From Cucumis sativus (lineage: Eukaryota; Streptophyta; Magnoliopsida; Cucurbitales; Cucurbitaceae), in contig NC_026657.2 in assembly GCF_000004075.3 (NCBI RefSeq), positions 18,472,501 through 18,536,500 on the forward strand: 64,000 nt of DNA, given 5' to 3'. Below the pieces are notes generated by a model, which saw nothing but the letters and a program-made list of their open reading frames with translations, was not told the DNA's origin and did not search any database. The number at the start of each line of letters is the position of its first letter. Within the stretch, counting starts at the first letter, position 1. A program made the translations under genes and the position numbers. Positions 46,394 to 46,633 of the stretch are shown here, in pieces.

Positions 46394-46633
46394 AGCACTG
46401 AGTTTCTGATCCGGAAGCTTCCGTTTAAACGTTTAGTTTGTGAAATTGCTCAGAATTTCAAAACCGACCTGAGGTTCTAGAGCAGTGTCGTCGCGACGCT
46501 TCAGGAGGCGGCCGAAGCCTATTTGGTTGGTCTGTTTGAGGATACGAATCTTTGTGCTATTCATGCTAAGAGGATAACCATTATGCCTAAGGACATTCAA
46601 TTGGCAAGGAGGATTAGAGGGGAAGGGGCTTAG
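46394..46633 (+). pseudogene. Captured histone H3 fragment (C-terminal half)
   Basis: Eighty codons without a gap match residues 57-135 of histone H3 plus its stop. It begins STEFLIRKLPFKRLV and includes [40 protein letters not shown] and GA. An in-frame TAG replaces the Gln after DLRF, and the substitutions Cys for Arg (LVCEIAQ), Asn for Asp (AQNFKTD) and Gly for Arg near the end are atypical for so conserved a protein. The N-terminal tail with its modification sites is absent, and an in-frame TGA directly precedes the fragment. No intron is seen within it. It is plainly a dead capture inside CACTA 4, derived from a host H3 gene or its transcript. Confidence 0.93.

Follow-up and report, generated by a model that had tools for sequence, protein, structure and literature searches.

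RESULTS AND DISCUSSION

A CACTA element with host DNA in place of its transposase

We found that the window, a stretch of 64,000 nucleotides from Cucumis sativus (C3:18472501-18536500), contains what is very probably, in both identity and history, a Pack-CACTA: a CACTA (En/Spm) transposon, non-autonomous, whose transposase region has given way to 1.06 kb of host DNA that includes half of a histone H3 gene. The element occupies positions 45407-49610, has the ends CACTACTACAAAAATAG and TTTTTGTAGTAGTG, and carries TAT on both sides. Its 32-bp inverted ends match each other at 94% and are of the CACTA type; 3-bp target site duplications are typical of the CACTA superfamily. The parts of the element, in window coordinates, are as follows.

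45404..45406, no strand: target site duplication TAT, left; a single TAT at 9 of 9 examined unoccupied homologous sites
45407..45438, plus strand: 5' terminal inverted repeat, 32 bp, 94% to the other end
45407..46360, plus strand: native CACTA 5' part, common to the H3-less relative L055; homology stops at GATTAGAATG
46361..46393, minus strand: 5' seam filler, repeating the 3' end of the captured piece in inverted form; template at about 47408-47445
46394..46633, plus strand: captured H3 coding part, decayed, codon 57 to stop; TAG at codon 85
46634..47457, plus strand: captured noncoding part, from the H3 3' region to 5 nt before the ATG of the neighbour (donor alignment)
47458..47507, plus strand: 3' seam tract; matched from its start, among the relatives listed, only by copies A and B and the C4 locus
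47508..49610, plus strand: native CACTA 3' part, common to tens of places, many with TNP2 transposase upstream
47851..48681, plus strand: Ulp1-type (C48) peptidase domain, a relic in scattered pieces; the joined pieces match Peptidase_C48
49579..49610, minus strand: 3' terminal inverted repeat of the CACTA
49611..49613, no strand: target site duplication TAT, right

A preliminary description had called this stretch a complete CACTA. The ends and the TAT duplications bear that out, but the coding capacity does not: among the matches listed (the best 150 of 435 candidates), no Transposase_21 match fell inside the element, and the longest stop-to-stop frame wholly within it was 98 amino acids. 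The C48 relic reached 23.1 bits against Peptidase_C48 (cut-off, 20.7) when its pieces were joined, and the three pieces taken singly gave no profile match.

Relatives of the native 3' part were then compared (the best 40 of 735 candidates were scored). For the 3' part as a whole, Transposase_21 lay upstream in the same orientation and no more than 8 kb away at 21 or more of 35 places; for the segment 47458-47881, it lay no more than 5 kb upstream of at least 18 of 24 copies. Both counts, for which 36 hand-picked Transposase_21 matches were used, are lower bounds given without a chance estimate. The 24 copies are the 34 matches listed minus the three H3-carrying elements described below and 7 shorter matches. 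One relative (L056) has an open frame of 724 amino acids over its Transposase_21 match. The H3 piece sits at the position where many relatives have the transposase. The relative L055 (C3:21.94 Mb) has the same 5' part and no H3 at that place; a partial Transpos_assoc match in it scored 22.9 bits, below the cut-off of 27.7. A LINE-type zf-RVT domain (81.6 bits) is nested in L055 at 4890-5318.

The captured DNA and its donor

Translation of 46394-46633 gave H3 residues 57-135 and the stop, gapless and with one internal TAG. This agrees with the preliminary description, which had reported a gapless match ending at the natural stop and a premature TAG; the TAG, at codon 85, is present in the window copy and in two of the three copies overall. 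A genome-wide search with the Pfam Histone profile, in which all 65 candidates were scored and 39 matches obtained, gave 103 bits for the window place and about 164 bits for each of five full-length H3 matches. Three broken H3 3' halves were in the same list, at C3:18073966, C3:18518870 (the window) and C6:14396067. Since the 50-amino-acid piece downstream of the TAG by itself scored 68 bits against the profile (E = 1.1e-18), the H3 match is not due to chance. In a DNA search with 46380-46660, all 8 candidates were scored, and they were the three element copies and five H3 genes.

The donor could be found in the host genome, as the preliminary description had suggested looking for it: an intact H3 gene on C7, matching at 94% over the H3 stretch in the DNA search, with its tandem neighbour H3 gene at 86%. 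Over 240 bp, the window H3 differs from the donor at 15 positions with no gaps, and 9 of the differences, including the TAG, are nonsynonymous. The homology to the donor, however, spans 46394-47457, that is 1,064 bp at 88% over the whole piece (C7:19794663-19795705), so the captured DNA exceeds the 240 bp first described more than fourfold, although the capture of an H3 half stands. The homology starts at codon 57 of the intact, uninterrupted donor H3 frame and ends 5 nt short of the ATG of the gene downstream of the donor, which indicates capture of genomic DNA, with half of the H3 gene followed by its 3' region and almost the entire spacer. When 46640-47460 was used as query, all 5 candidates were scored; besides the three elements and the donor, they included one match of 54 nt on C4.

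Directly downstream of the donor H3 (L054, reverse strand, 4844 onward; ATG at C7:19794657) lies a small gene that belongs to the LTP/protease-inhibitor family; its frame matches PF00234 (protease inhibitor/seed storage/LTP family) with 31.3 bits against a cut-off of 21.7. The upstream region of this gene was captured nearly whole.

Three copies, two insertions and nine empty sites

Three copies of the element were found: the window copy (W), copy A on C3 and copy B on C6. The preliminary description had proposed a search for other CACTA copies with the same H3 piece, and A and B are two such copies. Copy A (C3:18071.1-18075.2 kb, minus strand) has flanks homologous to those of W past both ends (window 44523-51474) and the same TAT site. 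Because of these shared flanks and this shared site, copy A is a segmental duplicate of W and represents no separate jump, which rules out three independent transpositions. Copy B (C6:14393022-14397278, minus strand) has flanks unlike those of W and reads GGA-CACAACTAC...TAGTAGGG-GGA; it is an independent insertion with worn ends and its own GGA duplication. Since the C6 copy has its own target duplication, the element moved after the capture. The two distinct insertion sites, on C3 and C6, share one and the same 5' seam. Independent capture by each copy is also ruled out, since a search with the seam (46340-46420) gave three candidates and all three were the element copies.

We also joined the flanks of W without the element and searched the genome with the product; the best 40 of 466 candidates were scored, and nine near-full-length places were read at the junction. 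These nine places, eight at C3:18.09-18.25 Mb and one on C1, matched over 723 to 725 of 725 bases, and all nine have a single TAT and no element. Everything between the two TATs is therefore missing from the unoccupied sites, and the H3 fragment lies inside the CACTA copy, as the preliminary description had held. A host H3 pseudogene that merely happens to be flanked by CACTA ends would have to explain both these nine homologous sites and the same 5' seam in the second insertion on C6, with its own target site duplication; the empty sites refute a pseudogene outside the element, nothing was found in favour of such an origin, and we give it practically no chance.

Another CACTA-like end lies at 45102, about 300 bp outward from the insertion site of W, so that this insertion is nested. 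Repeat ends of the CACTACAACAAAAA type, at 45102 and 53135, surround the H3 element; the pairing of these two ends is uncertain, as their 3-bp neighbours, GTT and ATT, differ.

A fourth locus with the 3' seam lies at C4:8106605-8107200 (L058, 906-1501) and joins about 50 nt of the captured donor end to native CACTA; these 50 nt, the seam and native sequence are retained at C4:8106605-8107089. Over 806 of the 905 nt before this locus, no long second copy was found among the best 40 of 240 candidates, the next best match being 282 nt at 73%. The locus may be a deletion derivative or another rearrangement.

The seams and the route of capture

In all three copies, the native 5' part stops at GATTAGAATG and H3 starts at AGCACT, with 33 nt between them. 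The first stretch of this filler is an inverted match to the captured 3' end at 24 of 25 nt, the shared AATG counted, and the filler also holds a second short inverted stretch. When the filler was compared with the captured 3' end, 0 of 2000 shuffles reached the score, and 0 of 5000 did so in a second test; against the present donor piece, the figure was again 0 of 2000. Against the native element parts the score was ordinary, with 830 and 720 of 1000 shuffles reaching it. The filler also has a weak likeness to the sequence that continues the native part in L055; the score was reached by 9 of 5000 shuffles when GCACTG was counted and by 213 of 5000 when it was not. GCACTG occurs in the L055 continuation and again at the window copy's H3 seam, so a direct joint by 6-nt microhomology is possible. 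In three small differences from the donor as it is now, the filler and its template agree with each other, so that the filler may have formed in the element after the capture, or the donor may have changed since. Judged from these sequence matches, the 5' seam is probably a template-switch scar left by repair. The 3' seam tract repeats neighbouring words, and its templating was not significant (110 of 2000 shuffles for the captured part, 396 of 2000 for the donor, and 61 of 1000 for inverted matches to the native parts).

The route that we consider most likely, with moderate confidence, is template switching during gap repair. A CACTA relative would have suffered an internal break or excision gap, and its repair would have copied the H3 locus. 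The broken left end (..AATG) would first have annealed, in the wrong orientation, to the far end of the donor stretch and primed synthesis there; about 33 nt would have been copied with a slip, followed by a switch to H3 codon 57, where AGCA is shared. Copying would then have run for 1 kb to just before the ATG of the neighbour, and the product would have been joined to the right end. The 4-nt words shared at the switch points are short enough to have arisen by chance. The chimera, seen at two insertion sites, was presumably mobilised in trans by the transposase of relatives; it landed in another CACTA-like repeat and was duplicated with its surroundings. The H3 part decayed neutrally, mostly by C>T and G>A changes that could reflect deamination of methylated C.

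A published general route for Pack-TYPE elements is the two-element model of Catoni et al. (PMC8903248; PMC13317346), by which CACTA copies on both sides of H3 would have been mobilised together and their inner ends deleted. That model predicts an internal position for captured DNA, and in the window element the captured DNA indeed has native sequence on its 5' and 3' sides. However, 7 kb around the donor (L054) match the window element only at the captured stretch and at the tandem H3 gene, a comparison of one assembly with one element in which an allele that was never fixed would leave no trace, and the inverted 33-nt filler at the 5' seam demands an extra repair step. We consider this route unlikely, though by no means negligible; a two-element fusion followed by a repaired deletion is possible.

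The captured piece is also bracketed by inverted arms of 29 nt (46353-46397 and 47408-47450; 93% and 86% complementary), which would suit a small mobile unit of its own that had landed in the CACTA. The donor, however, has the 3' arm alone and an intact H3 gene on its 5' side, and the searches with the captured piece and the seam found no free-standing copy of such a unit. Entry of H3 as a small unit was rejected because the donor lacks the 5' arm, and we regard it as very improbable.

Neutral decay and the failure of the H3 clock

The polarity of the decay was determined in the three copies with the donor as reference and the tandem neighbour H3 gene as outgroup. Among 36 distinct coding changes, 29 were on the element side (the neighbour agrees with the donor), 3 were ambiguous, and at 4 the neighbour agrees with the element, these being donor-side or repeated changes. 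The 29 element-side changes comprised 19 nonsynonymous and 10 synonymous ones; with the same spectrum on the same sequence, 19.1 nonsynonymous changes are expected. The H3 frame therefore looks unconstrained, in line with the free decay proposed in the preliminary description. C>T or G>A accounted for 21 of the 29. The TAG at codon 85 is present in W and B and absent from A, although W and A are the closest pair; a repeated C>T at CAG, or a reversal or conversion, would account for this.

The preliminary description had expected the H3 part to give an unusually clean clock, but this expectation failed. Between W and A, 14 of 240 sites differ in the H3 part and 17 of 823 in the captured noncoding part (Fisher p = 0.004); the difference between coding and noncoding rates was not significant for W-B, A-B, W-D or B-D (D, donor). 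The K2P distances of the captured noncoding part were 0.090 (W-D), 0.085 (B-D), 0.072 (W-B) and 0.021 (W-A), and those of the coding part were 0.067, 0.090, 0.095 and 0.062, respectively, so that the coding part alone would put the W-A split nearly at the age of the capture. The share of transitions also differed between the coding and noncoding parts for W-D (p = 0.001) and B-D (p = 0.005), and the difference was not significant in the other three pairs. Since the per-context C>T rates were similar in the two parts, base composition explains part of their disagreement. H3 coding divergence was rejected as a clock on account of the W-A disagreement and the excess of C>T and G>A, a warning that captured coding DNA in a transposon is not usable as a plain clock.

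Plant substitution rates are 6.5e-9 to 1.3e-8 per site and year. With these rates, the noncoding part gives rough dates of 3.3-7 million years for the capture, 2.8-5.5 million years for the W/B split and 0.8-1.6 million years for the duplication; the whole-element W-A distance roughly dates the duplication at 1.4-2.8 million years.

Relation to known gene-capturing transposons

How plant DNA transposons pick up genes is still argued, between fusion of neighbouring elements and template switching in repair. Here, a single genome offers the donor, a relative lacking H3, both seams, and occupied (two) as well as empty sites, and one of the seams repeats the captured piece's far end in inverted orientation, which points to template switching. 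hAT elements have hAT ends and 8-bp duplications; the window element has CACTA ends and a 3-bp duplication instead, and so lacks the marks of the fungal hAT-H3 elements considered below.

Pack-CACTA and other Pack-TYPE transposons are reported as established in Arabidopsis, rice and maize (PMC8903248), a paper in whose main text the word "histone" does not occur. Like them, the window element has CACTA ends, no transposase, a fragment of a host gene and movement after capture; it differs in that the donor and nine empty sites are resolved and that its 5' seam is inverted filler templated by the captured piece. In animal Pack-TIRs, formation by gap filling or by fork stalling with template switching has been described (PMC8277862). 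The seam microhomology and the template switching proposed there as a capture route resemble the window case; that account leaves application to plants open, and the filler in the window element repeats, inverted, the captured piece itself.

Capture of histone H3 by a hAT transposon has been reported in Pseudocercospora fijiensis and other fungi (PMC6710886) and in Pyrenophora tritici-repentis (PMC3538342). As in the window, a DNA transposon captured H3; the P. fijiensis copies, 94% of which are described as matching the third exon alone, decay by RIP transitions (PMC6710886). The fungal elements are reported in tens to hundreds of copies and are thought to have taken a transcript or retrocopy, whereas the window element is a plant CACTA that took genomic DNA with flanking spacer. 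Among the papers listed in a literature search, no title or abstract opening dealt with histone H3 in a plant CACTA. Gene capture by CACTA elements is thus already known, as is H3 in a DNA transposon from the fungal hAT elements, and the window element is a well-resolved case.

Small RNA potential and other repeats in the window

In the H3 part, the exact 24-nt windows shared with the donor numbered 61 of 217 for W, 21 of 217 for A and 22 of 217 for B. The comparison also took in the coding parts of the four remaining full-length H3 genes: W and B shared no window with them, and A shared 7, all with one gene. On these sequence matches, the element could be imagined as a mobile regulator of one histone gene, whose transcripts could feed 24-nt small RNAs fitting the donor H3 and its spacer and in which the captured spacer could serve as an internal promoter, but we think such a role very improbable.

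Elsewhere in the window, the stretch 21626-26621, about 5 kb long, has CACTA-type ends with TAG on both sides and start-codon frames of at most 93 amino acids, and is only distantly like the H3 element. At 57598-58917, a second partial copy of the flank of the element lies within the window. The element and some 1.5 kb around it are missing there, and this copy may go together with the repeat units found at C3:18.09-18.25 Mb.
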